Part shown: positions 1,909 through 37,900 of the stretch, in pieces
Numbering within the stretch: the first letter of the stretch is position 1
How the letters are laid out: each line of letters starts with the position of its first letter
Assembly: GCA_001800135.1 (NCBI GenBank)
Contig: MGUU01000008.1
Span: 1-64,000 of the forward strand
Reading direction: 5' to 3'
From: Elusimicrobia bacterium RIFCSPLOWO2_02_FULL_39_32
GTDB taxonomy: Bacteria > Elusimicrobiota > Elusimicrobia > 2-02-FULL-39-32
Length of the DNA: 64,000 bases
Position numbers and translations under genes: made by a program
The notes under the pieces: model-generated
Seen by the model: the letters and a program-made list of their open reading frames with translations, nothing else
Database searches by the model: none
Told to the model about the DNA's origin: nothing

Positions 1909-1942
1909 AGGTTCAGTTCTTTATAAAGAGAGTAAATTTTTT

Positions 1943-2130
1943 TCTATTGGTGTTTGAAAAAACTTAATAAAGGAATTCCGTGCAAATCGGAAGCGGTCCC
2001 GCCGCTGTAATCCTGTCCTATCCTTATAAATAAGAATAGGCAAGCTTTTTAGCAATAAGCCACGAGTTTAGAATTTTAAACTGGGAAGGCGCTAAAAAAG
2101 TGCAGGAGAGCCAGAAGACTGACCAGTAGA
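1943..2130 (+). ncRNA. Cobalamin riboswitch (aptamer 1)
   Basis: Adenosylcobalamin-class aptamer. The P1 stem pairs TCTATTGGT (1943-1951) with ACCAGTAGA (2122-2130). The core has the conserved block with GCGGTCCCGCCGCTGTAA near 1992-2009, then AAGCCACGAG, the CTGGGAAGG element and the B12-box-like AGCCAGAAGACTGACC. It lies between a good promoter and an intrinsic terminator abutting cobC. High cobalamin is therefore expected to stop transcription of the late cobalamin operon. Confidence 0.9.
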
Positions 2131-2217
2131 TGTTTTTTGAAGCTTCTTCGTTTAGAAAAGGAGTCTTCAAGAGGTTTTATTTTTTATGTAAAACCTAAGG
2201 ACCAAGGAGTTGGGTGC

Positions 2218-5435: not shown

Positions 5436-6527
5436 ATGAATTATACGCATGGAGGCAATGTGCAAGTTTTAGCGCCTGAGGTTGGCGTTTCCATAGATCA
5501 GCTGCTGGATTTTAGCGCTAATATCAATCCTTTTGGTCCTCCAGAAGATGTAAAAACTATTATAAAAGAATCACTCAATGAAATTGCGTTTTATCCAGAT
5601 CCAAACTACTGGAAATTGCGCTCTGCGCTCGCAAATTTTCATAATCTAGAAAAAGAAAATATAGCGATTGCCAATGGAGCTAGCGAACTTATTTTTTGGG
5701 CTAGCCATTTTTTTTCTAAACCAAAAGCCTTAATTTTTTCTCCAAGTTTTACAGAATACTCAGCAGCTGTAAAATCCTGCTTTGGAGAAGTTCAATATGA
5801 GCGCTCTAGAGAAGAATCAGATTTTAAACATTCATTTGAGAATGAATTGCCTGATCTTAAAACAAACCTTATTTTTCTGGGAAATCCCAACAATCCAACT
5901 GGCCAGCTCTATTCAGCTAAAACATTGATGAATTGGATTGAGCGCCATGTTCCAAATAATGGAAAACATCTGGTGGTTTGTGATGAATCTTTTATGCCAT
6001 TCATTCAAAATGATTTAGAACATTCTCTACTTCCTTATGCTTTAAAAGATTCAAGGATCTTAATCTTACGCTCTTTAACTAAAATTCTTTCCATACCGGG
6101 ATTAAGGTTAGGCTATTGCGTTGGTTCAAAAGAAATAATTGAGAAATTTAATTCTCTTATGCCAACATGGAGGGTCAATATTTTTGCTCAAAAAATAGGG
6201 GAAGAAATTAAAAATTTTAAACAATTTATGATTGATTCCTCTAGGATGTTAACTGTATTAAAAGACAATCTAACTGCTCGCTTGCAAGCAATCCCTTTCC
6301 TTAAAACATTTAAAAGTTCTTCAAACTTTCTTTTACTTAAAATTTTAAACCCTAAATTTAGATCTTCTGGATTAACTAAAACTCTATTAAAAAAAGGAAT
6401 CCTGATCCGATCCTGCAATGATTTCTTTGGATTGGAACAGGATCAGTACCTGCGTATTGCGGTTAGAAAAGAAAATGAAAATAGTTATCTTCTAGATAGT
6501 TTAAAGGAAATTTTTTATGGCAGCTAA
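5436..6527 (+). CDS. cobD: L-threonine-O-3-phosphate decarboxylase
   Basis: PLP-dependent fold-type I enzyme (363 aa) that decarboxylates threonine phosphate to (R)-1-amino-2-propanol phosphate, the linker of the nucleotide loop. The N-terminal MNYTHGGNV and LDFSANINPFGPP blocks are typical. The PLP lysine lies in LRSLTKILSIPGLRLGY, and NPNNPTGQL is the usual cofactor-contacting segment. GGTAGGA provides a ribosome-binding site. The 3' end overlaps cobQ by 11 nt. Its substrate needs a threonine kinase; no pduX is in the window (see the ParB/SerK-like gene at 24521). Confidence 0.92.
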   Translation: MNYTHGGNVQVLAPEVGVSIDQLLDFSANINPFGPPEDVKTIIKESLNEIAFYPDPNYWKLRSALANFHNLEKENIAIANGASELIFWASHFFSKPKALIFSPSFTEYSAAVKSCFGEVQYERSREESDFKHSFENELPDLKTNLIFLGNPNNPTGQLYSAKTLMNWIERHVPNNGKHLVVCDESFMPFIQNDLEHSLLPYALKDSRILILRSLTKILSIPGLRLGYCVGSKEIIEKFNSLMPTWRVNIFAQKIGEEIKNFKQFMIDSSRMLTVLKDNLTARLQAIPFLKTFKSSSNFLLLKILNPKFRSSGLTKTLLKKGILIRSCNDFFGLEQDQYLRIAVRKENENSYLLDSLKEIFYGS

Positions 6528-8145: not shown

Positions 8146-9117
8146 ATGAATTTTATAGGAATATTAATCATTGCTTATCTCTTAGATTTGCTGCTTGGGG
8201 ATCCGGATTGGATGCCGCATCCAATCCGCTTTATTGGATTTTTAATTGAGAAAGGGGAAAACGCCATTAGAAAAGGCATCTCATCTGAAAAATTAGAATT
8301 GCTGGGGGGAACCTTCTTAACCATTGGCATGATCTCTTTAAGTTTTTTGGTTCCGTGGATGGTTCTAAAAATTTTATTCCAACATTCTCCCGCATGTGCT
8401 GTGCCAGTTGAAATTTTTTTACTTTACGCTTGTTTCTCGACTAAAGAATTGGCGATTGAAAGTTTTTGGGTAAGAGATGCGTTAAAATCAAATGACATTC
8501 CCTTGGCAAGAAAAAAACTCTCATGGATTGTGGGCAGAGATACAAAAAACCTAGATGAAAAAGAGATTATCCGTGGAACTGTGGAAACAGTTGCAGAGAG
8601 TACAGTGGATGGAATTATAGCTCCGGTTTTTTATGCGTGTTTGGGAGGAGCTCCTTTAGCTCTAACTTATAAGACAATTAATACTTTAGATTCCATGATT
8701 GGACATAAAAATAAAAAATATTTTTATTTTGGAAAAACTGCCGCTAAAATTGATACTTTAGCCAACTGGCTTCCAGCCAGGATCAGCGGGTTTCTCTTTC
8801 CAATCGCTGCTGGAATTCTGGGATACTCATCAAAAAGCTCATATCAGATCGCTTGGGGTCAAGGTCTAAATACGCCAGTACCCAATGCTGCTATTCCAGA
8901 AGCTGCCATGGCTGGAGCGCTTCAAATTCAATTAGGGGGTCTAAATACCTATGAGAATGTCCCATTACAAACACCCTATTTAGGTTCCGCAGAAAAAGAG
9001 CTTTCTGTTGAACATATTGATAAATCCATTAAGTTGATGTTTGTGGGTTCGCTCCTATTCTTTTTGATTTGCTTAACTATTCGAACTCTTTGGGGAATAA
9101 CATTTATAAGAGGATGA
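8146..9117 (+). CDS. cbiB: Adenosylcobinamide-phosphate synthase
   Basis: Membrane protein of 323 aa (CbiB/CobD family) that attaches aminopropanol phosphate to adenosylcobyric acid. Diagnostic blocks are LLGDPDWMPHPIRFIGFLIE at the N-terminus, the GRDTKNLDEKEIIRGTVETV segment, the DGIIAPVFYACLGG loop and NAAIPEAAMAGAL. The 93-nt gap before it holds only a 14-codon frame at 8062, which I do not call as a gene. A TTATAC hexamer just before the ATG may be a weak internal -10. Confidence 0.95.
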   Translation: MNFIGILIIAYLLDLLLGDPDWMPHPIRFIGFLIEKGENAIRKGISSEKLELLGGTFLTIGMISLSFLVPWMVLKILFQHSPACAVPVEIFLLYACFSTKELAIESFWVRDALKSNDIPLARKKLSWIVGRDTKNLDEKEIIRGTVETVAESTVDGIIAPVFYACLGGAPLALTYKTINTLDSMIGHKNKKYFYFGKTAAKIDTLANWLPARISGFLFPIAAGILGYSSKSSYQIAWGQGLNTPVPNAAIPEAAMAGALQIQLGGLNTYENVPLQTPYLGSAEKELSVEHIDKSIKLMFVGSLLFFLICLTIRTLWGITFIRG

Positions 9118-10591: not shown

Positions 10592-10619
10592 AAGCCACAA
10601 TTACATCAAAAAATTAAAC

Positions 10620-10782
10620 ATGGGATAGATGTCAGGGAAGTCTCGTGAAAATCGAGCTCTGCCCCGCAACTGTAAACCGCGACGAAAGCTTAAAATAAGT
10701 CACTGGTCTAGTCACAAATTAGACTGGGAAGACCTTTAGCAAGTAGGAAGACCGGTAAAGACAGGAAACCTGGCTATCCAAT
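10620..10782 (+). ncRNA. Cobalamin riboswitch (aptamer 2)
   Basis: A closer match to the cobalamin consensus than aptamer 1. It has CAGGGAAGTCTCGTGAAAAT, the block CTGCCCCGCAACTGTAAACC, AAGTCACTGG, GACTGGGAAGACC and a B12-box-like AAGTAGGAAGACCGGT. The closing stem pairs GGATAG (10623-10628) with CTATCC (10774-10779). No intrinsic terminator follows. A hairpin with arms TGCGT/ACGCA lies between the aptamer and the GAGGGAG ribosome-binding site of the porin, so translational control is likely. Confidence 0.92.
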
Positions 10783-10835
10783 AAAGTTGCGTACGAAAAT
10801 AAATCGGAACGCATTCTTCGAGAGGGAGAACAATG

Positions 10836-12200
10836 ATGAAAAAAATTAAAGTTGTTGCAGCTGTATGTCTAGTAGTTTCTAGTTTCTTTTATGGAATTCA
10901 GAATCTTGGCGCTGTTTCAGAAGAGGAATTCCAATCCTTAAAAAACAAAGTGCAGGAATTGGAAAAATATACTTTCCCGCCTGAAAAAGCAGAGGAAATA
11001 AAAAAGGTAACTGAATATGTTTGTCCTCAAGGACATACCTATGCCTTCCCGCCAGAACATTTTATCTGTCCAGAAGATCGCCTAATTGTAAAAAAAAGGT
11101 TCGCTTTAATAAAAATGAAACTAGACAGAAGAGAGGCAGTTGGAGATAAAATTAGCAGCATGTTAGATGAAGAGTTTCAAAAAAGGGTGAATGTGGCGAT
11201 CTCTGGAACTGGAATAGTCCAACACATTGCTGAGAGTCTTGAAAGCGCCACTAAAAAACAAACTTTTGCTCAAGGTTCAATAGATGTTTATCTGCTCAGC
11301 AGGCCATTCATTAACACCTTGTTTTTTATTGACATAGAATCTCAAGGCGGACAGGGACCAGATTCTTCTATCCCAAACCAATCTGTGCTTAACAATGATA
11401 CAACCTCTTTACCTGGAGTAGTCCAGACAGATCAAGTGCGTTTAAGGGAGGCATGGTTACAAAAAACAGCCATGAGTCAAAAAATCCAGTTTATAATTGG
11501 TAAAATAGACCTGACTAATTATTTTGATCGTAACAGAGTTGCCAATGATGAGACCAGCCAATTTATAACTGGCGGATTGGTCAATAATTTGGTTATAGGC
11601 AATGCTCCAAACGGACCAGGAATGGCTCTTCTTTATGATTCTCACAAAGGGTTTGCTCTAGGTATAGGCGCGCAGAGCGCTGACGGGAATGGAGTGAATG
11701 TAACAGAAGAACCTTTTTCTATTTCTGAAATTGCTCTAAGATTTAGACTTTTGCATGGGGCTTTAGGAAATATTCGGTTTTGGGCTGCAAGAAATGGTAG
11801 AACTGTGGGAGAACATAGGGACGATTACTCCCTGGGAACTAGCCTGGATCAAGAGATCGGATCAAAAATGATTCTTTTTGGAAGAGTGGGTAGAGCTATA
11901 AAAAAGGAGCCGGTGCGAGATCCTCACTTCTGGAGCGCGGGGTTGATGTTACAGAATTTTATTCCTGCAAGAAGGCGAGATAAATTTGGGATTGGCTACA
12001 GTCACTTCTTAACTCCCATTGAAACTGGTCTTACAGCAGAAACTGAAAATATTGGAGAGTGTTATTACTCAATTTTTTTAAGTGACCATCTTAATCTTTC
12101 TCCCAACATTCAAACTATTTTTCATTCTGCGGGATCGTCCCAAGGAGCAGCGCAAAGCAATGTTTTAATATTAGGATTAAGAACACAGATCACATTTTAA
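10836..12200 (+). CDS. OprB-like outer-membrane porin with N-terminal metal-binding-type motif
   Basis: Exported outer-membrane protein of about 454 aa with a signal peptide in the first 27 residues. Tandem ATGs lie at 10833 and 10836; GGGAG at 10824-10828 favours 10836. Counting from 10833, a short coiled coil (about 29-60) precedes a Cys/His motif with C64, H68, H76 and C79, resembling the YxCPMHP...CP heavy-metal-binding domain with parts of the ligand set lost. The rest is beta-barrel-like, with the porin block RLREAWLQ...IIGKIDLTNYFD and a terminal phenylalanine. As the first gene behind riboswitch 2, it probably admits cobalt or a corrinoid; substrate unproven. Confidence 0.7.
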   Translation: MKKIKVVAAVCLVVSSFFYGIQNLGAVSEEEFQSLKNKVQELEKYTFPPEKAEEIKKVTEYVCPQGHTYAFPPEHFICPEDRLIVKKRFALIKMKLDRREAVGDKISSMLDEEFQKRVNVAISGTGIVQHIAESLESATKKQTFAQGSIDVYLLSRPFINTLFFIDIESQGGQGPDSSIPNQSVLNNDTTSLPGVVQTDQVRLREAWLQKTAMSQKIQFIIGKIDLTNYFDRNRVANDETSQFITGGLVNNLVIGNAPNGPGMALLYDSHKGFALGIGAQSADGNGVNVTEEPFSISEIALRFRLLHGALGNIRFWAARNGRTVGEHRDDYSLGTSLDQEIGSKMILFGRVGRAIKKEPVRDPHFWSAGLMLQNFIPARRRDKFGIGYSHFLTPIETGLTAETENIGECYYSIFLSDHLNLSPNIQTIFHSAGSSQGAAQSNVLILGLRTQITF

Positions 12201-12252
12201 AAATGGTGTAAATTTTTAAAGTACTTAAAATAAAAAATAAAAGGAGGAGTCA

Positions 12253-13455
12253 ATGAACAAAATAAAACTAATCATGAGCGGGCTGATTCTTTGTTTAGCC
12301 GTTAGCTCCAATGCGCAGATGGAATCTCTATCAGAGGAGAATAATCGTTTGTTTGTGGCAAACCAAGATTCAGATTATGTGTCAGTTATTGATTTAAAAA
12401 CCTTGCAGCTCTCCAAAAAAATTAATTTGGATATTTTAAGCGCTTCACACATGACCATGGCATGGACTGGAAAAACTGGCCAAAAACTTCTTGTAACCAT
12501 GACAGGCAGGAATGAGGTGGCGATTGTGGATGTAGAAAAAGGGATTGTAGAAGCGAAGCTTCCAGTTGGAAGGTCCCCTGAACATTTTGCCATTGAAAAA
12601 AATAAAGATTATCCTGAATATTTTGCCTATGTCGCTAACTTTGACGATGGCTCAATCTCAGTGATTGACCTTGCGCTCAATAAAGAGATAAAAAGAATTA
12701 ATGGTTTTTATGAACCGCATGGGGTTACATTTAATGCAGACGCTTCCAAAGCCTATATTGCAAACTTTGGAGCCCATCGCATAGATGTCATTGATACCGC
12801 AAAACATGAAATTGCCAAACAATTGAGCATAGGAGATGTTTATCAAGTCGCTTTAAAAAACCCTTCGCGCTACTTATCGGAAATTAAAGGAATTGCCAAT
12901 GTGACTTTAACTTCAAATGGCCGGTATGGTTATGCCGCGGATGGAGATTCAAATCTCGTGGCAGTGATAGATACTGAAAAAGATAGCATTGTAAAAACCA
13001 TTCCAGTAGGAGAAGATCCGTGGAGAACTTATCACTCCCCAGATGGAAAATGGATGCTTGTGCCAAACAATGGGGATGAAACTGTATCTGTGATTGACGC
13101 TGAAAAACATAAACTAAGATCTACATTCCCAGCAGGCGGAACTATTACTGGAATTAATTTTGTATTGGGTGGGAAAAAAGCCTATGCCTTAGCTACCACT
13201 GAAAGCGAAGCGCTTCTCCATGTATATGATCTTCAAAAAATGAAAGAGAAAGGAACAATCTTAATTGGTAAAGGTCTCCGTTTAGAAACTGCTTCCACAT
13301 CTGTGGATGGTAAGACAATCTATGTAGCATCGTCAGTAGATAATTCCATCTATTCCATAGATGCTGAGACTGATAAAGTAACAAAAATTGCAAACGTAGG
13401 GATTACTCCTTGGGGAACAACCATTCAAGGAGACATGGCTTCTTATTGCCACTAA
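12253..13455 (+). CDS. Secreted YVTN-type beta-propeller protein
   Basis: A signal peptide (residues 1-21, ending SSNA) is followed by about seven repeats of the YVTN/YncE type: RLFVANQDSDYVSVIDLKT, YVANFDDGSISVIDL, YIANFGAHRIDVIDT and others. The protein should be a periplasmic or secreted seven-bladed propeller of about 380 residues. AAGGAGGAG gives a strong ribosome-binding site. It sits 52 nt after the porin under the same cobalamin riboswitch. Propellers of this kind bind ligands or partners, but the ligand cannot be read from sequence. A periplasmic partner of the porin is one possibility. Confidence 0.75.
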   Translation: MNKIKLIMSGLILCLAVSSNAQMESLSEENNRLFVANQDSDYVSVIDLKTLQLSKKINLDILSASHMTMAWTGKTGQKLLVTMTGRNEVAIVDVEKGIVEAKLPVGRSPEHFAIEKNKDYPEYFAYVANFDDGSISVIDLALNKEIKRINGFYEPHGVTFNADASKAYIANFGAHRIDVIDTAKHEIAKQLSIGDVYQVALKNPSRYLSEIKGIANVTLTSNGRYGYAADGDSNLVAVIDTEKDSIVKTIPVGEDPWRTYHSPDGKWMLVPNNGDETVSVIDAEKHKLRSTFPAGGTITGINFVLGGKKAYALATTESEALLHVYDLQKMKEKGTILIGKGLRLETASTSVDGKTIYVASSVDNSIYSIDAETDKVTKIANVGITPWGTTIQGDMASYCH

Positions 13456-14366
13456 ATAAAAATCCAAAGCCAACATTGGATTGTGAAATTTTTCTAGATT
13501 CTCACAAACAACGCTGGTCTTGGGATAGAAGATTAAAGCTTTTTGTTACAATTCTTCTAGTTTGTACTCTATTTGTTAGTCGAAACTATCTGCTAGGGGA
13601 CGAAAGATCAAAGATCAATGAAATCCCTGGTTTAAAAAAAGCAATAGTTCAAGCTATTCAAAAGTATTATTTTAAACCGGTTAACATAAATGAATTTGAG
13701 AAGAGTTCTTTGTCTGAAATATTACAAGTTTTGGACAAAGACTCTTCTTTAATTCAAAGCGAACCAAAAAAGTCAGATTTTGTCAGGGGTTTTAAGAATA
13801 AAAAAAGTATTAAAAATTATAAAATTATTGCTGAAAAAATTGGGGTTTTCCATATCTCTTATTTCTCTAAATCCACTGCTAAAGAATTTGAAAAGATCCA
13901 TAAAAAATTGACTAAGGATGGAGCTTCTAAACTGATCTTAGATTTAAGAGGAAATGAGGGTGGGGATTTTGATTCTTGCTTAAAAATAACAGAACGTTTT
14001 GTGTCGTATGGGGAAACATTAGCAATCATTCAGGAAAAAGAGAAAAAAATTATAAAAAAATCAGAAAATAAGGTCCCCATAAAAATTCCCATGGTCATTC
14101 TTGTGGACAGCAATACCGCATCTTCTGCTGAATTTCTTGCTTCATCGCTAAGAAAACACAATCAGGCAACAATTATTGGACTTCCCACACAAGGAAAAAG
14201 AACAGTTCAAAAAATGATTCCTGTAGAAACACTGTGGTTATCATTGACAGTTGGGACTTGGGAAATAACTGGAAATAGCGATGAGTCAGAAAAGATTGAG
14301 CCAGATTTTTTTATCGCTAATAAGGATCAGCAACTAGAAAAAGCTATCTCACTATGCAAACATTAA
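13446..14366 (+). CDS. Membrane-anchored S41-family (C-terminal processing type) peptidase
   Basis: The recognisable parts are a transmembrane segment (LKLFVTILLVCTLFVSRNYL) and the S41 core. LILDLRGNEGGDF is the oxyanion/substrate block, the catalytic serine is in SNTASSAEFLASSL, and the catalytic lysine is in PTQGKRTVQ. No PDZ domain is evident, so it is short for the family. The start is uncertain: TTG codons at 13410, 13446 and 13482 are in frame, and AAGGAG at 13427-13432 favours 13446, overlapping the end of the propeller gene. It overlaps cbiX by 13 nt. A protease is unusual in a cobalamin operon. Confidence 0.65.
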   Translation: MPLNKNPKPTLDCEIFLDSHKQRWSWDRRLKLFVTILLVCTLFVSRNYLLGDERSKINEIPGLKKAIVQAIQKYYFKPVNINEFEKSSLSEILQVLDKDSSLIQSEPKKSDFVRGFKNKKSIKNYKIIAEKIGVFHISYFSKSTAKEFEKIHKKLTKDGASKLILDLRGNEGGDFDSCLKITERFVSYGETLAIIQEKEKKIIKKSENKVPIKIPMVILVDSNTASSAEFLASSLRKHNQATIIGLPTQGKRTVQKMIPVETLWLSLTVGTWEITGNSDESEKIEPDFFIANKDQQLEKAISLCKH

Positions 14367-20875: not shown

Positions 20876-21277
20876 ATGACTATAGAAAAAATCTGGCAGG
20901 AACTTCAAAACTATGATGAGACAAAAAGCTCAAAAAGTTTTCAGCTAAAAGATTTAAGAATTCAATTTTATAAAGGGGCCATGGAAATCCCTTTAATTGC
21001 GTTTTTCCCAAGCCAGCACTTTGATTTGAATTCTTCAAAAATGAATGAATTTTCTAAACTTCTTGAAAAACAAGGATTGGTTTTAGATTGCGTAACAGAA
21101 ACGGCTAACTATAAAATTAATACGAATGATGAGCAACAATATATTGGAAGAATCACAAAAGATGCCTTAAAATTACATGCCATTAGAATAAAAGAATTGG
21201 GCAAAGAGTGTTTTGAATCGCTTATCTCCTTTTTTATTAACCCTAATAATCTGTTTGTTTCAAGGAATTTGGAATAG
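20876..21277 (+). CDS. Conserved-looking protein of unknown function in the corrin operon
   Basis: 133 aa, soluble, no signal peptide or membrane segment. I do not recognise a family. The centre has a strand-like LRIQFYKGAMEIPLIAFFP, followed by a helical C-terminal half. It is 18 nt after cbiG and 88 nt before the cbiH-cbiL fusion, in the same direction and with similar base composition, so it is probably a real member of the operon. It is too short to be a canonical CbiJ. Confidence 0.55.
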   Translation: MTIEKIWQELQNYDETKSSKSFQLKDLRIQFYKGAMEIPLIAFFPSQHFDLNSSKMNEFSKLLEKQGLVLDCVTETANYKINTNDEQQYIGRITKDALKLHAIRIKELGKECFESLISFFINPNNLFVSRNLE

Positions 21278-23750: not shown

Positions 23751-24524
23751 ATGAAAGAAAATAAAAAAATATATTTTGTGGGAGCTGGACCCGGGGACCC
23801 AAAACTAATTACTCTTAAAGGAAAAGAGTTAATAGCAGCTGCGGATACAATTGTTTATGCTGGTTCCCTGATTAATCCTGAACTATTAACTTACGCCAAA
23901 AAAGAAGTTGATCTTTATGATAGCGCTAAAATGACTTTAGAGGAGATTACTCAGGTATTAATTTCATCCTATAAAGCTAAGAAATGCACAGTGCGTTTAG
24001 CCTCTGGGGACCCTACTATCTTTGGCGCTATTGACGAAATGGATGAGATTCTTCAAAATCATGAGATTGAAATTGAAGTGGTGCCTGGGGTTAGTTCATT
24101 TGTGGCAGCAGCCAGCTCTTTAAAACTTTCCCTTACAGTGCCGGACGTGGCTCAAACTGTGATCTTAACTAGGGGGGAAGGACGAACCAAAATGCCTTTA
24201 AAAGAAAAATTAAAGGATCTGGCCCAACACCAATCTACCCTGATTCTTTTTTTAAGCGCTGCTTTAGCCAAATCCGTGCAAGAAGATCTGCTTACAGCCT
24301 ATCCTCCCCAAACCCCAATCGCTATTTGTTATAAAACCAGTTGGCCAGATCAAAAAATATTTAGAGGAACTTTAGAAGAACTAGAACAAATCATGCGCAG
24401 GGAAAAAATAACAATGACCGCCCTAATTTTAGTAGGTCAATTTTTAACAGCCGCTGGCCATAAATCCAAACTCTATGATAAAACATTTACTCATGCTTAT
24501 AGAAAAGCCCTTAGCCCCTCATGA
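23751..24524 (+). CDS. cbiF: Cobalt-precorrin-4 C11-methyltransferase
   Basis: Tetrapyrrole methylase of 257 aa. The CbiF/CobM signatures are FVGAGPGDPKLITLKG, IVYAGSLINPELL, RLASGDPTIFGAIDEMDE and the C-terminal TALILVGQFL. It methylates C-11 of cobalt-precorrin-4. Its last four bases overlap the next gene (ATGA), indicating coupled translation with the ParB/SerK-like gene. The 85-nt gap before it holds an 8-bp inverted repeat (CATCCCTT / AAGGGATG) without a T-run. Confidence 0.95.
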   Translation: MKENKKIYFVGAGPGDPKLITLKGKELIAAADTIVYAGSLINPELLTYAKKEVDLYDSAKMTLEEITQVLISSYKAKKCTVRLASGDPTIFGAIDEMDEILQNHEIEIEVVPGVSSFVAAASSLKLSLTVPDVAQTVILTRGEGRTKMPLKEKLKDLAQHQSTLILFLSAALAKSVQEDLLTAYPPQTPIAICYKTSWPDQKIFRGTLEELEQIMRREKITMTALILVGQFLTAAGHKSKLYDKTFTHAYRKALSPS

Positions 24525-24961
24525 ATTTTGAAGTCCATCTCCTACCCATTGAAATTTTTAAGCCTCATGAAGAGGTTCAATCTGAAAGAGTGCTTAAGAT
24601 TAAAAAAGAAATTTTAGATAGTGAAAAAATTCTTCAGCCCCTATGGATAGAAAAAGGGAATTTTGTAGTGTTAAATGGACACCATCGCTTAAGCGCCTTA
24701 AAAGAACTAAACTGTTTTCAGGTCCCATGCTTTTTATTTAACTATTTTAGCGATGAGATTCAAGTTCAAGTTTGCTCAGGTTCTTCTCTAACAGAAATAG
24801 ATAAACATTCTATTATTCAGGCTGCCCTCACCGGCAATCTTTACCCGCCGCGATCTTCTTTTCATATCCTAAACATTAAACTCCGCCCAAATCCCACTCC
24901 TCTAACTGATCTTCAACCCGAAGTTTCTATTTTTGACCCAAACCATTCACTTAGCCTTTAA
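24521..24961 (+). CDS. ParB/SerK-like protein, candidate amino-acid kinase
   Basis: 146 aa. Residues about 1-85 fit the ParB/Srx-like fold used by free-serine kinases such as archaeal SerK: a glutamate-containing KPHEEV near residue 17, ILQPLWIEKGNFVVLNG, and the motif NGHHRLSAL (about residues 49-57) where SerK-like kinases have DGHHR. It lacks the helix-turn-helix of true ParB. The ATG overlaps the cbiF stop codon, tying it to corrin synthesis. CobD needs threonine phosphate and no PduX is seen, so this may be the threonine kinase. The fold assignment is fair; the substrate is inference. Confidence 0.6.
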   Translation: MNFEVHLLPIEIFKPHEEVQSERVLKIKKEILDSEKILQPLWIEKGNFVVLNGHHRLSALKELNCFQVPCFLFNYFSDEIQVQVCSGSSLTEIDKHSIIQAALTGNLYPPRSSFHILNIKLRPNPTPLTDLQPEVSIFDPNHSLSL

Positions 24962-25068: not shown

Positions 25069-25626
25069 ATGAAAGTTGCTCTTAAAGAGTGGGCTGTTAT
25101 TGTTCAAGCCATTAAACTAGGCTGCCATCATCTTCTATTAAGAAAAGGTGGTTTAGCGGATAAAAAACAGGAATTTAATCTGGAGCAGGACAAATTCTTC
25201 CTTTTCCCAACTTATGAACACCAGGAAATCCAATTCATACAAAGTAAAGTTCATGCTCTTTATAACCAAGCGTTGAAAAATTATATTTCAGAAGATGAAC
25301 TGCTTATCGAATGTTGGGCTGAGGTTAAGGGAGTGTTTAAAGTAAGTGACTTAAAAATTTTAAAACAACTTGAACCCTATCATATTTGGTCAGAAGAATA
25401 TCTTAAAATGCGTCTAAATTATAAACCAGAAAAAAATCTATTTCTTCTCTTACTAAGAACTTACCAACTAAAAAATCCACAAAGAATAAAAAATTTAACG
25501 CGTTATAGTGGCTGCCGTTCTTGGATCCAACTTGAAGATGAAATATCTCTTGACCCCTCAACCCCAATATTATCAGAAAATGATTTTAAAATTTTAAACA
25601 AAAATATAACTTCCCATTTTCTATAG
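25069..25626 (+). CDS. DUF1802 family protein
   Basis: 185 aa. The N-terminal signature KEWAVIVQAIKLGCHHLLLRKGG followed by a hydrophilic stretch and FFLFPTYEHQ is that of DUF1802 proteins, whose function is unknown. No signal peptide or membrane segment. It is separated from the cobalamin genes by 107 nt with its own promoter/operator-like region, so it is probably not part of that operon. Confidence 0.75.
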   Translation: MKVALKEWAVIVQAIKLGCHHLLLRKGGLADKKQEFNLEQDKFFLFPTYEHQEIQFIQSKVHALYNQALKNYISEDELLIECWAEVKGVFKVSDLKILKQLEPYHIWSEEYLKMRLNYKPEKNLFLLLLRTYQLKNPQRIKNLTRYSGCRSWIQLEDEISLDPSTPILSENDFKILNKNITSHFL

Positions 25627-25989: not shown

Positions 25990-28900
25990 TTATTGCTGCT
26001 GCGCGAAAACGCCTATTTCTTGAATATCTTCTTGCATATTAGTATCTAGGAGCGGTGTAGCATTCAATGAGTTTCCAATCAAGCTTAAGAAACTAATCAC
26101 AGCATTCTTTAAATTCTCATACTGTTCAATATTGTCCAATAACTCTTTTAGATTGCCAACCAAATTTCGTGGGATAAAAAGCCTTAGGGGAACTGAACTT
26201 TTCTGCCTCACTGTTCCCACTATTTCATCCAAAACAGCTGGATCTAAAGAATAATTCCCTTCTCTAAACCTGATTAGTCCTGGATCAGCTTTAACTTCAA
26301 GGCTAATCCCTCTCTTAACAGAAAGACGATTGATGGCCCAAATCTCTGCCTCAGATAAATTGCCGCTTAATATGGTAAGTCTGGAATTAGAAACCCCTTT
26401 CGCGCTCAGATGATAAGCGGAAATAATTTGCTCTGCATATCTGACTTTATTTTTAACTAAAGGATCCAAGAGAGCCACAGTGCTGGAATAATCTTCCATC
26501 TTGGACTTTACAAGAACATTCTGGAACTTGTCATTCTTAAATCCAGCCAAAACAACTTGGCTTAAAGAACGGTTTATTTCTTTAGAAGACATTGTGCTGC
26601 CAGTCTCCTCCTGCAATTTTTGTCCAAGATATTCATAGAACTCTTGCGGATCATCTACGGCGCGAAGAAGATCTAAAGCAGGATTAGATATCCCTTTATC
26701 CCCAAGAACAGTTTGAACGTCTAAAGATTGAGCAGTGTTTTGTAAAATCATAGGGACTATTTTTTGCATGTTTGAAAAACTATACAGTCGCTCCTCTTTT
26801 TCAAGTTTAGATATTGCGCGCGCAAAACCATCTGAAATTGAATAGGTTCGGCTATTTTTAGAACTTGAACTTTTTTTAACTTGGATTCCTTTAGCCTCTT
26901 TAAAAGTTTTTCCAATTTTAGCAGAGCCTAAATAGTTGGCGAACTGATGCGTTGGAAATGAAAGGAGTAGGACAGTTAAATTCTCCAGCCACGGAATATT
27001 CACTCCAAGCGCATGGAAAAAAGTTGTGGCAAGAATAGGCAAAACAAAGATGTTCACTGCGCTCACCAAACCTGCAACCACCACATTTCCAAAAGGAGCT
27101 TTTTCCGGCTGACCTTTAATTCTAAAATAAATAAATTCCGCCAAATGAGCAAGCCAGAAGGATCCCCAAACTAAACCATTGAATGTCTCAAATGAAGGAA
27201 GAGAAACATTCCCTGTGAAAAGCAAGTGCAGCAGATTTTCAATGGCAAGCGCAAACGCAACTGTACCTATAAAAAGAAGATTCTCTCTTAAAGAAGCTTT
27301 TCTCACATATTCTTCTGCTGTATATTGAATACTAAACCAGCGGGGGAGCAGCCCATCTCTTACAAAATTAAGCGTGGCAGTAGCAGTTGTTTTTCCTTCG
27401 AAACTTCTGATGATGGTAAGAATTTTTGCAAGTCCAATCATACGGCTGGAAAAACCGCGTTCATTATCGTACCACGCGTCAAAGGATAGAAATTCTCCCT
27501 CAACTCGAACGCTGTTTAAATCTAAAACACTTGAATGAAGATATCCTTTAACTTCATCAGAATCAATAGGATAAGGTTTGTCATGCAGATGAAAAATTCC
27601 GCTCATTTCCGGTCTTTCATAAGCCTGACGAAATATCTCTTTAACATCTTCGGTTGGAATCCCAACATACTCAGGCTTTAATTTTATTCTTACATTTACA
27701 ACTGAAGCTCCGCCATACCCTTCTCTTAAAGCCACAGCTGTGGTTCTTCCGATGAGTTCAGGCATTGCTTTGCCAATAGTCTGTCCAGCTCCAGAGCTGC
27801 TTAAGAGCATGGTTCTGGCTGCGGCAAACATTCTTTCCATTACATCATGCAAAGGTCCATGATTTAATCTTTGATCATTAGTAAGTTCATGCAAAGTAAT
27901 AGCGCTTACAAAATCAGCCATGTGCTTAACAAAGTAAAGAGCAACAGCCAAAGCGCCAGTTGTACAACTTCCAAGGGTGAATATCTCTTCTGCCCGGATC
28001 AGCTCTTGCAAAGCCTTATCTTGTAAATTCATGGCCCCTGGAATCACAAGCAGGGATTCTCCCTTTCCCGGATTGCCATAAATCATAATGTCACCTTGAA
28101 TTTCAAACCAATCTTTTTCTTTAAAACGATGGTACCCGCTTCCTGCTGCATGCAGATAGATTGGATGAAACCCCTTTGCCCTTAATTCAGCAATTTGTCT
28201 TTCCAAACCGCTAAGACTTGAGCCGTCAAAAACATCAATCCTAAGCCATCCTTTTTCATTGTTTCCGGCCAAAATCACAAAAGTGTTTGTTTTATCATCC
28301 CAGCCAGCATACTCAAATTTTATTCCGGGTCTTCCATAAACAGTATCGTTATTCAAAGCTTTCGCAGTAGCAATGACTTTTTCTTCTGTTGGTTTATAAA
28401 GAGTAACTCCCAAAATATTCACATTAGGATCCCCAATCGCTGCCAGAAGCATATTTTTGCCAGTGCGTCCTCCAACAGCGCTAATGATTAGATCAGCTTT
28501 TCCGCCATTCATCTCTTTAATTCTGGGTTTGGGTTCCAAGGGAACTACAGAAGGCAGGATAGAATAGGTTGCAGTTTGTCTCTTATTTTTGCTATTTCCT
28601 GGATTATCTTCCGCATCTTGCGCTAAATTCTCAATCATCGCTTGAGCAAGTCCTGATTCTCCCATCCAAATAGGAAGCGCCCAAAGCCGTCCTTTCCCTG
28701 TAATTTGAGGTTTACTAATCATGGCTAAAACTGGATTGTCAACCATATCTAAAGATGCTAAAGCTTCTTCTGTAACTTCAATTCTTCCGCCAGAAGCCCT
28801 AACCATTTCTCCAACCAAAGCAATGACCGCATCTCTTTCCAACTCTTCATCAAATTCAATTACAAAATTATGCAGATCACCTTCCAGACGAGTGGGGGTC

Positions 28901-31900
28901 TCAACTCTATAACCATCTGTTCTATAACTTACAGCAAATTCTGAATTGCGCAAAGGCACTGTGCTAAATATCCGAATGCTGGTATCATCTAAACCGCGCA
29001 ACGCTAAAGATTCTTTTAAATAATTTTTAAGAATTAATAAACCATCCATAGATGGCCGCACATGCCGTACCCCATTGAGATGATATGGCTCTCTTAAAGC
29101 CTCATAAGCGCTCATATCCTCTAAATCGTCGCTAACGACCAATATAGAATCAATATTATCTTCATTTAATATCTTGGAATCTTTAAGAATGGATTCACTG
29201 GAAATTTTAATTTTAGCTCCTTGAATATAGAGGTAGGTAAACCCCTGTTTTTCAAAATCGTTCTTATATTTTTCAAATTTTTTTACGTCAAAACCATCCA
29301 GATAGATGCGAATATGTTTAGGCAAACGTTTTTTAATCGCATGATAGAGAAATAAGACATCGCTCACATTCTTAACTCCATAAAAATTAAGAGAGAGTCT
29401 CTCATCTCCCATGAGATCAATGACTAGACTGGATGCAAAATGATCCAAAGGATTTCGCTGATTTGAATCAAATGGAATGTCGGATATTTCAACAGCTACC
29501 CTATTATAAACTCCCTTGGATTCTCTTTTTAATTTGGCTACTGGCGCTGGGATATATCTTTGACCTTCCGGCACCATTTTTCTATCGCTTTTAAATGGTT
29601 TCTTATCACTATCAGAAGAAGAAACAGATTTTTCTTTATCCCTTTCTAAAGACTCCTCTCTTTTATACTTATCCGGATCTTGAACCGCATCTAAAACAGC
29701 AGCTGCCCAAACATTTGCAAAGTCATAACCAAATAGGACTGTTACGGTTCTATGATCCACTATCACACTCCTAGGATCAAAATAGATAGAGCTCTCCCCT
29801 TGCACAAGACTAGGTCTTAAAGAATCGTATGGCTCTAAAACTTTAAGCCGCGAACCAGAAGCCTCTGCCACTTTTTTTAACCTTGAAACAACCTCCTCTT
29901 TAGTTAACTTTCGATCTAAAGTAAATGTGACTGCGGTTAAATGCGCATCGTACTGGCTGGATTGTACCTGAAGATAGCCTTTCCTCATTACTTTGGGCAA
30001 AAGATTTGCCATAGGAGCTGGAAGAATTTTACTGCCAACCACAATATCATGGCTCCTGTCGCGAGTAGGGTCAATAGCAGAATTGGTATGGACCACATGA
30101 CCTAACATATCCAAATCAGCAAATGCTGTTCGAGTTAAATTTACAGCCATCTCTACTGGAGTCATTTCATCAGTTGCCATGACAATATTTTTTGCTCCCA
30201 TTTGCCGATGGTGTTCAGGATCAATTTGACCGCCTGCTGCTTTATGAGCATAAATTACTGTATCTATTCCAAGTTTTTGCCAATTAGGAAGGACTTTGTT
30301 TGGATCTATTTTTTCTCCCTTCTTTATAGTTCCAAGAGCTTTGCTAAAAATGACTTTAATTGGAGAGGAGTGATTGATAATGATTGAATCTCCATCAGGA
30401 GCGATTTCAATATCGCTTTGCGGCATGATTTGGCGCAAATAGGCTACAAAGACATTTGTATCTAAAGGATTTTCCGTTGTTTCTTCCACATAGATATATT
30501 TAAGTATAACATCCTCTTTGCCGCGAAGCTGTTTGATTAATTGTCCTGAAACAACTTCATCTCCTCCATAAATCCCAATAATTTTTGGTTCGCTCTTTTT
30601 CCCTGTTTTTTCAGGATGCTGCGGAATTGATTGCGCGCTAAGGTTAACTTGATCTTGTCTTTGTTGAAGGGTTTTCAAATAAAAGTCATTTTCAAATTCA
30701 TCTTTTTCCCGTCTTTCAGCAGAACTCTGAATCTCTTTCAAAATATTGTCTGCTGCTACCCAGTCTGGAATCCATGCGCGAAGTGTCACTAAACGGCCAT
30801 TCCCCTGCACAGAAATGCTTTTATCTAAAATAAGAGGCTTATCATGTTCTTGCACGCTGATAGAATTAGGGATCCAGCCTCCTTCAGCAAAATAGATGGG
30901 CCAGCCTTGCAAATTAGCAGACCGTAAAATTTCCATCATTCCTTCAACATCCATTTTAATTCCTTCATCTAATATTAGATTTAACTGCGCATATCCTGCG
31001 CCTTCATGCGTATGAGACTCCCATTTTTCACCAAGACCTTTTTTAACTCCATGGAGCCGAAGATTTCTTGCGGCCTGATCTGATTTTTTCTGCAAGATAT
31101 GGCTTTCACCTGGAACCACTGAGATCAGTTCCCATTGTTTTAATTTATGGTTAAGAGCTCCATCTAAATACTCAATAAGGGGGGAAAGAGCAGTTGTGAG
31201 TCCTGTATTGTGATAGCGAACACGAGGTTTTGGGTTTGTATCTACAGGAGGATCCAATTCAGGATTTAGAACATGCGCCATTCTTCCTTCGTGCCAAGGT
31301 CGTTGACGTGGATCATCATCAAAATCATCTGGATCCTGGTCTGTTAAAAAAATAACATCTTTTGGTGATTCGCTTGAATATGAAACATATTTACCAGGTT
31401 TAATTACAATGGTTTTAGTCTGGCCTTGAGAATAGATGGAGATGCTCCATTCACTATTGCTCTGGAATTTGTCAACCTTTAGATCAAACTGAAACCTGCC
31501 TTGATAGGGGTTAGCTTTTAAATGGTCATAAAAGGCCTGGAACTCATTATCATTGTTAATTCCATAAATAGTTGAAATTTCAAAATTAGGATTAAACCCC
31601 TGTCCTCTTTTATCTCCCAATGCTCTGCGTACAATTTGTACAGCTGTATTTTTTATTGACAAGTTATCTCTCTTGCCAAATGCTCCATCCACATCTAACA
31701 CGATCTCTACTGGGACCATGAGAGTAACTTCGGTTGGTTCATCTTTTTCATCTTCTAAGATCGGAGCAAGATGATGCAGCGCTAATTCTTTAGCGTTGGA
31801 TTGCGTAGGCTGCGCCTCAGGAGCATTTTTCTCATCCCGGGCTAGTTTTAGTTTCCGAATCAGGTAAGGCCTAATCCCACCCCAAATAAGAGTAAAATAA

Positions 31901-34900
31901 ATCTCTTCCAAAAGAATTTCTCTGATCGCTCGTTTATCTCTTACTGAACTGGATGGTTCATTCTCAACATGGAGAATATCAGTTAATTCCATTAAAATTT
32001 TTTCCATTTGTCTTTCCCATGGATATGACGATTCTATTAATCCCTGTTTAAAAGAGAATGCTGAATTAATCTCATCATCTGAAGTGTCTGAACTCAAATC
32101 CCTCTTAATGTCCTGATATAGATCTTTTAAACGCCTAATCTCTTCAACTAAGGATGGGTTATCATAGGCCAAATCCTCCATCATGCTTAAGATCATGTTT
32201 TCAGAGGAGTCAGTTTTTATTTTTTCCTGAATTCCAGCCATCTCCTGCAAAACATCATTTCTATTTTTTCCAAGAATTCCTGGTTGTGAAGGAGCGGACT
32301 CTAAGGCAAGGATCGCTTTTGAGTAAATTTCTGGATCTATTGAGTCTAAATTTCTATTGAGCGCAATATCCCTTAATGTCCATATTGCTCTTATTTTTCC
32401 AGATAAAAAAACATTCTCATCCTTAATTGCCCGAGCTGCATCCTCTAAGAGTCTCTTCCAATAGCGCTGAACTTCTTCAAGTTCTTGAGGACTATATTGA
32501 GCACGCGCTGTTTCTGTTGGCCAAATAACATGGCGCAATAGGACAGATTCATATTCAGTTAATTTGAAATGTCTGGTAAGTTTTGAATAAAGAGAGCTCA
32601 ATTGATTTTTGTCAAGATCATGAAAAGTTCCTTTATCACCCACCACACCCTGTATCAGCCCTTTAACCTTTTCATCTTTGATTTGATCCATTGCAACTCT
32701 TAAAGGAGCATAGCGCAAACCAATTAGAATTTGAGAGGCTGGAATGAGACGCTTACTGTTTGCAAAAAGGTTGGAAAGAAGAGACTGGCTAAAAATTTTA
32801 TACCAGGAAACTCCATGACGTTTAAGTTGCTCATCTGCAGAATAGAGTTCATGCAATTTATTCAGAGCTTGCGTTAAAGATTCAATAGAAGAAGATTGAT
32901 TCTCATCTTCCCATGAGTTCCAAAATTCATTGATTGCGCGATTGATCGCTTTTTGTCTGCCAGTCCATTCCAAAGGTTTTATTGAGGTTGGAGCATATTT
33001 CCCACGAAATCTCCATGCCAATTCTCCTCCCATGGAAGCTGGCACAGCAAAGAAAAATTCCCCTTTCCATTGATTTTTCTTAATATTTTTGGAAAATGCT
33101 TCTGCCCGGCGCACAGCATCCTCTAAAGTATGAATATTCATTTTCCAGTTGCCTCCGGAAACTCCTCGAACCGCTTTTCCTTTGGCTAATGCATTTTCAG
33201 CAAAACGATCTGAAATTCGATCCGGATCTCCTGGTATAATGCTTCTGGTTCCAATTAAGCCTCCAATTACTTCCGGCAGTCTTCTTAATAAAGAAAGCCA
33301 TGTGCGTCTTTCCCATCCACCGCTTTGACCATAAACTGAAGAGGGTTTTACACTTCCTCCATAGAGTATCCCAACAGGGATTGGATCAGATTCAGAAAGA
33401 GAAGCTCCTCCTTGTTCCTTAATATGTTCTCTAATCGCTCCAGCAATAATTTGATTCGCCTCATGCATCTGATCTGCGGACATGCTAGTTCCAGAACCAA
33501 TAAAATCAATTGGCTCATAAGCAATTTTAATTTTTGGCAGATCCCTTAAACTGATCCCGTTCAATACCGCTTTGGTTTGCTTATGTAAACCCTGTTTCCA
33601 ATCTCCTTCTGCGCGATTTCTCTCTCCTATAGCAATCACAGGAATTAAACCATTGCGTATCACAGCCAAAGCTTGTTCATTGACTATAGGATCTCCTACT
33701 CCAAAAAATCGTCGGACCTCTGAGTGACCAATCAGAACATAGGTATATCCATCCCTTTTTACTTGTGTTAGATATGGATCAGAAAAATCCTCCAGATCCT
33801 GAAGAGCAAAATGGAGATTTGTGGGTTCAGCCTGCTGTCCGGGATTAAATAGTCTATTTTCCGATATGACATTTCCAACTCTGGTTAAATCCAGGTTTGC
33901 AGGAATTAAAACAGTTGTCATTTCTCTTAAATTTGAATTTTCTGCTAGGGCGGATTGAATAATTGCAGCGGTTTGTATGGAACTATTGCCATGAATTTTT
34001 GTGAAGTCAACTACTGCCATGGGCGGCCCGCGGAGAGCTCCCACAGGAGTTGGGGCACGCGCATGGTAAAATTTAGAAATTATCTCTAACATTTTTTGGA
34101 TTCCGTTCGGATCTTTAGCTACTGTTTCTGAGCCGATGAATATTCCATCTACCTCATGCGCTAATTTTTTAAGATAATCCGAAAGTTGAGAGCGTTCTGG
34201 AGTTTTCCCTCCTAAAAGAATCTTAACCCGATCAGCTTCCTCTTGAAAAAGTTGGCGCAAGTGTGGTTTTGAAGCCTGAGCAATCTCTCCTTTACTTCTT
34301 AACATAGGATATAGCGCATTACCTGCAGCTCTATAGAACCCATGCGCATCCTCTTTAGAAAGAAGAATTGGATTCCCTTCCTTATCAATTACTTGTGGAA
34401 CAACTACTGCGCTCCTTAGAGCCTTAGGCTGATTGACAAAACCCATGAGCTTTTCCCGAAACTCTCTTTTAAAACGATTTTCCAGACTATCTCTTTTCAA
34501 ATTTCCGGTATCATCTCTCTTCAAATCTTCTTCAGATAGGTTCACCACAATGATTGCAGCTAAAGTTTCTCCTTTGCCTTTAACTGCTCTTTGGATTTTT
34601 CTAGCAACTGTGACATTTGATTCGCCTGAAAGGCTAGCTGTTCCTTTTCTAGGATCAGGTATCAAAGCATAAGAAGCTCCTACATTCAAAGCTAAAGCTT
34701 TTGAAGTCTGACCAGTGAAAGCGCCGGAAGATTCAGGAGAAATATCCCGAACTCCCATGAAAAGTCCTGTTTCAGAAAAACGATCCCTAAAAATGGGCTG
34801 AACTTCTTTAGTTGGTTTTCTTTTGGAAAGCTCTTTATTCCAGAGACCCTGAAACTCATCATCTCTTACCTGTCTAAAATCATAGTGATCACTTAATTCT

Positions 34901-37900
34901 GAAGAAATCGCGCTAAAAAAATTCCTGTTATACTTAAGCATATCCATGCTGTCATCATGAATCTTTAGATAAAATTCATGCATAAGAGTAGAAAGATGGC
35001 TAAAATCAGTTAGCGTCACATTGCCATTACTATCCAATCCGTAAGATTGGTCTATCTTATGATCTGGATTGTGGATGCCTCTTGAATACATCTCTTTTTC
35101 CAATTGATAGACAGAATCAATTAGAGCTCTTTTGGCTTTTAAAGAAACTCTTTTACTTTTAAAAGGCCTATTTAAAAGAGTCACTTTTTCCTGTATGATG
35201 ACGAACTCATAAAACACGCTTCTACCATCAATGACCAAATGCACGTTGCGCAGTAAGCTCATTGGGGCAGAAATTCCTCCCAAATATTTTTTTGCTAATG
35301 CAAACCCATGCAGCACTTTATTCAAATCTTTTTTTGGAACTTTAATGACATAGGGAATTTTTGGATCAGAAGGTATAAAAACATCCATAAATTCACCTGA
35401 ACGATCTATGCTAAGAGGGCCTAAATCCATTTCTCGTGCATTAGCATCTGTTATCATGCCCTCAACAATCTTGGTAACTTCATCGCCTGATGATTCATCT
35501 GAAACAAGCGCAAAGTGAAAAGCAAATAGATGAAACGGCAAGAAAACAAGATTTACAAACAAGTGAGAGATAAAATGAGCATCTCTTCTAGCAGCGTTCT
35601 GGTCATATTGCTTTCTTAGTAATAAGGAAATTCCTTGAGCCATGAAACCAAATAGCGCCATGTTCATTCGTATGAACCCTAGTCCCATCCAACGAACCGT
35701 AAACTCTAAAGCGCCTCTCCAACCCTGACTATAGGTATGTTGGTTAAAAAGAAAAGTTCTGTAATCCTGCTCAATTGATTCAAATTCCTGAACAGGGGCA
35801 ACTAAAAGAGCTGCATAGGAGAGAACTATTGTTTTGGATAGGATTATAGAGAAACTATTTTTAGATGAGGACAATCGTTGAAACCATTCATAAGCAATTA
35901 AATCTTTAGAAGCTAATCCCAAACTACTTGCTGTTGTAAGAGCTATTCCACCTCTTTTTACAAAGCTAGAAGCGCTCTTTGTTGTAGAGATGAGCGCGCT
36001 ATCTCCTTGAGGGTCAATGCTCTTTCTTGCTGATCTACTTGTTTGTTCTACTCCTCGGAAAATACCTTTTCTTGCAGAAGTAGTCACTTTCTCAACTGTG
36101 TGACTAATATTTCTAGCAGAGACCTTTACTTTATCCATTGAGTGAATAAACCTCTTTGCATTGGATCGCAAATGAGGCACAAATCCAACAGGAGAAGAAT
36201 CCAGTCGTGCTACAGTGAGGATTTTTTTCCTATCTTTAGATAAATTAAGATCATAAGCAACTTTTGCTTCCTCTTTTTTTAAAATAACGCGCCTTAAATA
36301 ATCGCTTAATAACTGAACTTCTATTTTAAATTTGATGCCCAGTGATCCAGTTAAAGAATAAAAAACAGTTTGCGCATTGACTGGGTCAAATGCAGCAATG
36401 AGACTTGCCGCAAATAGCCGAACTCGATCTGGCCACATTAATTGAGAAACAAAAAGTTTTTCTCCATCAAAAAGTTTTTCTAAAGGCGTTTTTTCTTGGG
36501 TAAAAACAGATAAATATTCTGTGCCCTTTTCAGATTCAATTCTAGTTATCTTTGGAGCAAGGGTGATAACTGCTGCATTTGATTTTTTAAGAAGCTCTTC
36601 CATCCCTTGGGAATGGAATCCGCCGGTAATGAAAACCGACACTTTCGCATTTTCTTTGGAAATGGCTTGAAGTAAGTTTCTAGACATCGCTTCATCTCTA
36701 AGATGAGCGTATTCATAAAAGGAGGCGATCTTCTCAAGTTGCGGGAAAAATCGAGTTGACTCTTGAGGATCAAATTCTAAATGGCTATTTGATAATTCCT
36801 GAATCTTTTCCTTTGTTGGATATCTCAGACCCTGGGAAGGAGCATGATTTTGAAGGGAAAAATTTTTGTATTCTTTCCATTCTTCAGGCCCCAACTCGTA
36901 ATCAAGTAATTTTTTCGTAAGATAGAGCTGATAAGATTGAGCAACTAAATTTTTTTCTTGCTCACTCTGGCAAAGGGATTCATAAGCTAATCTTTCCATT
37001 TTCTTTAATTCAGCAATTAACTTATCAGCGGAAATAGTCTCTGCTGCCAGAATATAACGGATATAAGACTCCATTGCAGGATATGCCTTGCAATCAAGTC
37101 CTGAATTCTTACAGAGCTGGATGAGATAATTGTAAAAAGCAGCATGCTGTATATGACCTAAGCGATAAGCCACGCTGCTTTTAAGGAGACGATTCATTTG
37201 GGGAGATGTGAGTTTCTGAACTAAAATCTGAATCATGGCTTTGCGCTCTTTTTCTACTTGAGCAAAATCCAGTTTTTCTTCCATCATAAGAGCTTTTCTA
37301 AATGCGCTGATTTCTTGAGAAACTTTCTCTTGCTCTTCTGTAAGCGCTTTCAGATATTCTCCAAGCCGAATCTCATGCTTGCGGTAAGATTCAACCTTTT
37401 GATCTAAGGCTAAAAGTTTTGCGTTATAAATCTTTTCTTTTATTTGAGAAATTTGTGATATTTGTTGTTCAATATCCCTCTTCAAATTTTCAGCTTGTGA
37501 AACAGATTCTTTATAAGCCTGAACGTGGCTATGGTAAAGTTTTGAATCATCAATTCCAATAAATTTTGGGATAGCGGTTGAACTTGTGAGCGCGGCGTGA
37601 ATAGCTCCGGAAATTTTATTTTCTTTAAGCAAATAATCAGCAACTTTGCGCACTGATTCTTGATTTTTATAATTACGGAAATTGGAAAGCTGAATGGGTT
37701 CAAAAGCGCCTTCTAAACCTACAAAACTAATTTTTTCTTGGATGATCAGAGCTTGCAGAGAATTGGCTATATTTTTTTGAGCTTCCTCATTCTGATGCGC
37801 ATCCTGAATATGTAATATAAGCGGGTCGCTCGCTTTCCATTTAGGCGGGAAATAGGCGCGCTTAAAATTAGAGAATTGAAGGGGCAGAACCACTGGCAAT

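Follow-up and report, generated by a model that had tools for sequence, protein, structure and literature searches.

Among the steps of B12 synthesis, the supply of threonine phosphate is one that is poorly annotated: genome-based predictions have omitted pduX (with cobD) because most producers verified by experiment lack it (PMC6461909). The locus analysed here raises the question of whether a small ParB-fold protein, encoded next to cbiF in a cobalamin gene cluster, fills this step. A preliminary description of the DNA proposed that the gene makes threonine phosphate. Here, we examined what this protein, which we call mini-SerK, probably does. All coordinates are positions in the window, a 64,000-nt stretch of contig MGUU01000008.1.

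A small open reading frame in a cobalamin gene cluster

The window holds a near-complete gene set for cobalamin, with cobC, cobU, cobT, cobS, cobD, cbiP, cbiB and cbiA in one group and cbiX, cbiC, bluB, cbiD, cbiET, cbiG, a cbiHL fusion, btuR and cbiF in a second. Most of these names were assigned by reading the sequence, while CobC, CobD, CbiB and BluB were verified by profile. The features that matter for the argument are these:

1931..2141 (+): cobalamin riboswitch, 5′ of cobC-cobU-cobT-cobS-cobD-cbiP-cbiB-cbiA (Rfam RF00174, 73 bits)
5436..6527 (+): CobD-like L-threonine-O-3-phosphate decarboxylase, 363 aa (TIGR01140, E=3e-79)
8146..9117 (+): CbiB (TIGR00380, over the cut-off)
10610..10791 (+): cobalamin riboswitch, 5′ of the co-directional run ending with cbiF, mini-SerK and DUF1802 (Rfam RF00174, 77 bits)
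23751..24524 (+): cbiF/cobM-like precorrin-4/cobalt-precorrin-4 methyltransferase, overlapping the mini-SerK start (sequence, and orthologs beside mini-SerK elsewhere)
24521..24961 (+): mini-SerK, single-domain ParB-fold protein, 146 aa, predicted free hydroxy-amino-acid kinase (L-Thr, less likely L-Ser; sequence comparison)
25069..25626 (+): DUF1802 protein, 3′ of mini-SerK (PF08819, 5e-55)

The mini-SerK open reading frame is real. Both motifs from which the preliminary description started, KPHEEV (residues 14-19) and NGHHRLSAL (residues 52-60), lie in a frame of 146 aa on the plus strand, and the start codon overlaps the cbiF stop just as described, within an ATGA at 24521-24524. Comparison with a congener (G053, L007) gave a dN/dS of 0.185 for mini-SerK and 0.167 for cbiF, indicating purifying selection at a rate like that of its neighbours. 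It is the sole copy in a 2.52-Mb, 97%-complete genome, and the DUF1802 gene also adjoins mini-SerK in two other genomes (L007 and L010).

Elsewhere in the window, a 133-aa protein with no Pfam match (20876-21277) is encoded between cbiG and the cbiHL fusion, and it occupies the same place, at approximately 50% identity, in G238 and G293. Porin-like, YncE-like and S41-peptidase genes (10833-14366) are located directly 3′ of a cobalamin riboswitch and 5′ of cbiX; a role in corrinoid or cobalt handling is possible. On the minus strand, positions 25990-38244 form one 4084-aa open reading frame, also found in L007, which, when read by eye, seems to contain triosephosphate-isomerase- and GAPDH-like stretches.

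Kinship with free-serine kinases and the altered site

The view of mini-SerK as a ParB-fold protein without a DNA-binding domain withstood closer comparison. Its similarity to SerK and SbnI is beyond chance, and neither an HTH nor any other DNA-binding family was detected, the Pfam search returning no match; at 146 aa and lacking an HTH domain, the protein falls outside the ParB DNA-segregation class. The best NCBIfam match was SerK (E=2e-11), followed by SbnI (2e-6), both with scores far under the respective equivalog cut-offs; for SerK (NF053625) the score was 43.4 bits against a cut-off of 380, with only profile positions 16-100 of 244 covered. The PDB search retrieved SerK 5x0b at E=2e-6 with the single sequence and at 6e-11 with a five-member profile, SbnI also being among the best matches. 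The five-sequence profile aligned with SerK in two collinear stretches, 4-82 with 17-99 and 95-131 with 205-241, the latter of which is weak when taken alone. Judged by these alignments, SerK and SbnI are the closest characterised relatives, and mini-SerK resembles SerK minus most of its middle part. An AlphaFold2 model built from two input sequences reached a pLDDT of 36 and was discarded, which we count against the explanation favoured below. Viral contigs scanned with the family profile yielded no relatives, and a scan of genome contigs matched a congener only. ParB-methyltransferase matches such as L012 and weak ParB matches such as L013 proved to be unrelated to mini-SerK.

Like SerK (Thermococcus TK0378, an ADP-dependent free L-serine kinase; 5x0b, 5x0e, 5x0j), mini-SerK has a ParB-fold core, a catalytic Glu, a GHHR motif and a C-terminal tail. 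Unlike SerK, which has 242 aa, it has nearly lost the middle portion of approximately 100 residues, carries Asn in place of D69 and RSSFH in place of KTTRH, and belongs to a B12 operon. With SbnI (Staphylococcus O-phospho-L-serine synthase; 5ujd, 6nr6) it shares the ParB-fold core, the equivalent of Glu20 and, as a predicted kinase, the location within a biosynthetic cluster, but it differs in having Asn for Asp58, in the absence of a C-terminal regulatory part and in serving a B12 rather than a siderophore pathway. Three sites of the protein bear on its activity:

24569..24571 (+): codon of E17, which aligns with catalytic E30 of SerK and E20 of SbnI (PDB alignment, short-homolog comparison)
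24674..24676 (+): codon of N52, at the position of SerK D69 and SbnI D58 (alignment)
24851..24865 (+): R-S-S-F-H tail motif, residues 111-115, which aligns with SerK K-T-T-R-H (221-225) (alignment)

The kinase glutamate, on which the preliminary description had made its proposal depend, is present in all orthologs: E17 does not vary among the five B12-linked proteins or across the 16 short homologs compared, a set in which the P-motif His-Arg is invariant as well. In SerK entries 5x0j and 5x0e, Gln and Ala occupy the Glu position aligned with E17. The second acidic residue (SerK D69, SbnI D58) is missing from mini-SerK; the five B12-linked proteins all carry Asn at position 52, as opposed to Asp in SerK, SbnI and every siderophore-type protein. 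The tail, too, reads R-S-S-[F/L]-H in the B12 proteins versus K-[T/S]-[T/S]-[R/K]-H in SerK and the other short proteins, and the five B12-linked proteins form one clade (support 0.90) in the tree of short proteins. According to PMC9641203, which cites Verstraete 2018, SbnI activity requires both Glu20 and Asp58. N52 is the main weakness of the threonine-kinase reading. The D-to-N and tail changes may reflect either an altered specificity, for threonine, or altered chemistry or lost kinase activity; we favour the former, because selection maintains the other features of the site and threonine phosphate is needed in this pathway. Threonine carries one methyl group more than serine, and the D-to-N and KTTRH-to-RSS[F/L]H differences are of a kind that a substrate change could require.

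Short relatives are also encoded in other clusters. The short ‘ParB N-terminal domain-containing’ proteins from SbnA/SbnB-type clusters of rhizobia, Bradyrhizobium and Janthinobacterium resemble mini-SerK in length (136-153 aa) and layout (Glu, GHHR/GNHR and tail), with approximately 30% identity over the full length; what sets them apart from mini-SerK is the retained Asp and KTTRH and the company of SbnA-like enzymes. Such homologs are borne on plasmids in Sinorhizobium, Agrobacterium, Bradyrhizobium and Janthinobacterium, where they adjoin or lie near SbnA-like genes, some with SbnB-like genes nearby as well. The Methylocystis homolog, for which no gene is annotated, is embedded among IucA/IucC siderophore genes, that of Burkholderia lies inside an NRPS cluster, and that of Methylobacterium has no siderophore or SbnA-type context. 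O-phosphoserine would be the expected substrate at the SbnA/SbnB-type clusters. Since these homologs are found beside O-phosphoserine-using SbnA/SbnB-like enzymes, the short form seems to recur where a phospho-amino acid is needed. This association suggests that the short ParB-fold protein is an amino-acid kinase that recurs within biosynthetic pathways.

Linkage, co-occurrence and known threonine kinases

Orthologs of mini-SerK, with 50-91% identity, were identified in four other genomes, and the gene is cbiF-linked in all five. It is located directly 3′ of cbiF in G293 (L009) and G164 (L011), while in the congener an AAA ATPase gene (L007 8430-9740), which the window lacks, separates the two. 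By eye, this inserted ATPase is DUF4143-like. In G238, one open frame joins a CobA-type uroporphyrinogen-III methyltransferase to mini-SerK as its C-terminal domain, the gene order being cbiF, cobA::mini-SerK and DUF1802, with overlapping gene ends:

L010 1477-2649, equal to L042 3432-4604 (-): CobA::mini-SerK fusion of G238 (open reading frame)

Co-occurrence was assessed in 235 genomes of one class, nine of which encode CbiB and five mini-SerK, each of the latter being CbiB- and CobD-positive. This corresponds to 5/9 CbiB-positive versus 0/226 CbiB-negative genomes (Fisher p=2e-8, relatedness ignored) or, for genomes at least 90% complete, to 4/5 versus 0/133 (p=3e-7), and the p-value is inflated by relatedness, the five carriers belonging to two families. 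In G279, G335 and G326 the contigs stop before the cbiF region, and the absence of mini-SerK there was not counted. A true exception is G187 (97% complete), which possesses CobD and CbiB and lacks both mini-SerK and PduX, so the CobD/CbiB pathway can run with something else. This genome encodes a 194-aa P-loop AAA_28 protein (L047 11119-11703, minus strand) that adjoins btuR and bluB and is absent from the other eight CbiB-positive genomes; it may be a different, candidate threonine kinase.

PduX is a GHMP kinase, and our survey was accordingly based on PF00288, taking complete proteins above the Pfam cut-off and leaving unassigned L074 (a contig-end fragment) and L076 (a match within a giant ORF). 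The preliminary description saw no PduX, and this holds for both the window and the whole 97%-complete genome, where we found no PduX-like GHMP kinase; nor does a pduX-like gene lie elsewhere in the genome, as that description had considered, its four GHMP kinases being ThrB, IspE and two HddA-like proteins. The same holds across the nine CbiB-positive genomes: their complete GHMP kinases group with ThrB, IspE or HddA, and none is PduX-like. The suggested association with cobD in genomes lacking pduX was also recovered, with CbiB and CobD in all five carriers and a PduX-like GHMP kinase in none. In E. coli pdu operons, pduW/X was absent beside pduV in both strains examined.

In its predicted reaction and pathway position, mini-SerK is like PduX, the GHMP L-threonine kinase, but its fold is unrelated, being ParB by sequence instead of GHMP. 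The threonine kinases BluE (Rhodobacterales) and MM2060 (Methanosarcina) are different proteins that provide other solutions to the same step. TIGR01140 spans residues 5-356 of the 363-aa CobD-like protein (266.6 bits, under the equivalog cut-off of 290.6), and this single-domain architecture speaks against an MM2060-like bifunctional enzyme.

Probable function and its alternatives

Taken together, we believe somewhat more than we doubt that mini-SerK is an L-threonine kinase dedicated to the cobamide pathway, feeding CobD. The nucleotide would bind at the GHHR P-motif (residues 53-56), E17 would act like SerK E30 by activating the hydroxyl of the free hydroxy-amino acid, and the C-terminal R-S-S-[F/L]-H tail would partly hold the amino acid, with phosphate transfer giving L-threonine O-3-phosphate. 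CobD (5436-6527) would then convert this product into (R)-1-aminopropan-2-ol O-2-phosphate, and CbiB (8146-9117) would attach the aminopropanol phosphate to adenosylcobyric acid. The computation establishes the sequence family, the conserved Glu, the place in the operon, the CobA fusion in one genome, the co-occurrence with CbiB and CobD and the lack of PduX; we infer that the protein is a kinase, that it prefers threonine to serine, that ATP or ADP donates the phosphate, and what N52 and the tail do.

The initial proposal that the gene makes threonine phosphate thus stands in part. It is supported by the strong linkage and co-occurrence with CobD and CbiB, the retained Glu and the lack of a pduX-like gene in the genome; its choice of substrate is weakened by T. 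kodakarensis SerK, which does not phosphorylate threonine (PMC5120207), and its kinase chemistry by the replacement with Asn of the Asp58 that SbnI requires (PMC9641203). Given that SerK rejects threonine, family membership alone lends no support to this substrate. That mini-SerK represents an undescribed class of ParB-CTPase-fold L-threonine kinases, derived from free-serine kinases via the D-to-N and tail changes, once fused to a methyltransferase and supplying threonine phosphate, is to us an evenly balanced question.

Alternatively, mini-SerK might be a degenerate ParB-fold protein devoid of kinase activity, serving as a nucleotide-binding regulator or partner of the corrin-ring methyltransferases CbiF/CobA. 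Its tightest physical ties are indeed to CbiF and, by fusion, to CobA, not to CobD, and the Asp that is Asn in all five proteins is needed by SbnI, which also has a second, regulatory role (PMC9641203). Nevertheless, we consider this fairly unlikely, as the catalytic Glu, GHHR and the SerK-like tail are kept, dN/dS is approximately 0.19, there is no HTH, and the threonine kinase step would be left unfilled in five genomes.

It is likewise unlikely that mini-SerK is a free-serine kinase whose O-phospho-L-serine is converted via the CobD-like enzyme to ethanolamine phosphate, leading to norcobamides. Every characterised relative acts on serine, plasmid mini-SerKs adjoin phosphoserine-using SbnA-like enzymes, and Sulfurospirillum has a norcobamide route that uses the CobD homolog SMUL_1544 (cited in PMC8749415). 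On the other hand, the features KTTRH and D69, which SerK and the siderophore-type proteins have in common, are gone from the B12 clade. Norcobamides are, moreover, rare. The idea that phosphoserine is unavailable in this genome, where SerC has no match, was rejected, as SerA adjoins a class V aminotransferase. Since these two enzymes should supply phosphoserine independently of mini-SerK, threonine is weakly favoured as the substrate; this argument is itself weak, because siderophore producers recruit a serine kinase despite making phosphoserine via SerA. Finally, a kinase acting on a different small hydroxyl compound in the pathway, such as aminopropanol or a corrinoid intermediate, with threonine phosphate coming from, for example, a promiscuous ThrB, seems very unlikely: the D-to-N and tail changes imply that the substrate site has changed and the genome encodes ThrB, but the CobD-like threonine phosphate decarboxylase and CbiB fit the threonine phosphate route, phosphate chemistry further along is already accounted for by CobU and CobC-like genes, and the tail is still like that of an amino-acid kinase.

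Among the open-access papers searched, none describes a ParB-fold threonine kinase for B12 synthesis, and a 2025 survey of the ParB fold names neither cobalamin nor threonine (PMC12704722). If mini-SerK is indeed an L-threonine kinase, it would constitute another independent solution to the threonine phosphate step, and the ParB fold, whose best-known role is in chromosome segregation, would gain a new metabolic reaction. The signature E..NGHHRL..RSS[FL]H would then be usable to annotate genomes, and the B12-linked clade would show a route by which a free-serine kinase changes its substrate.
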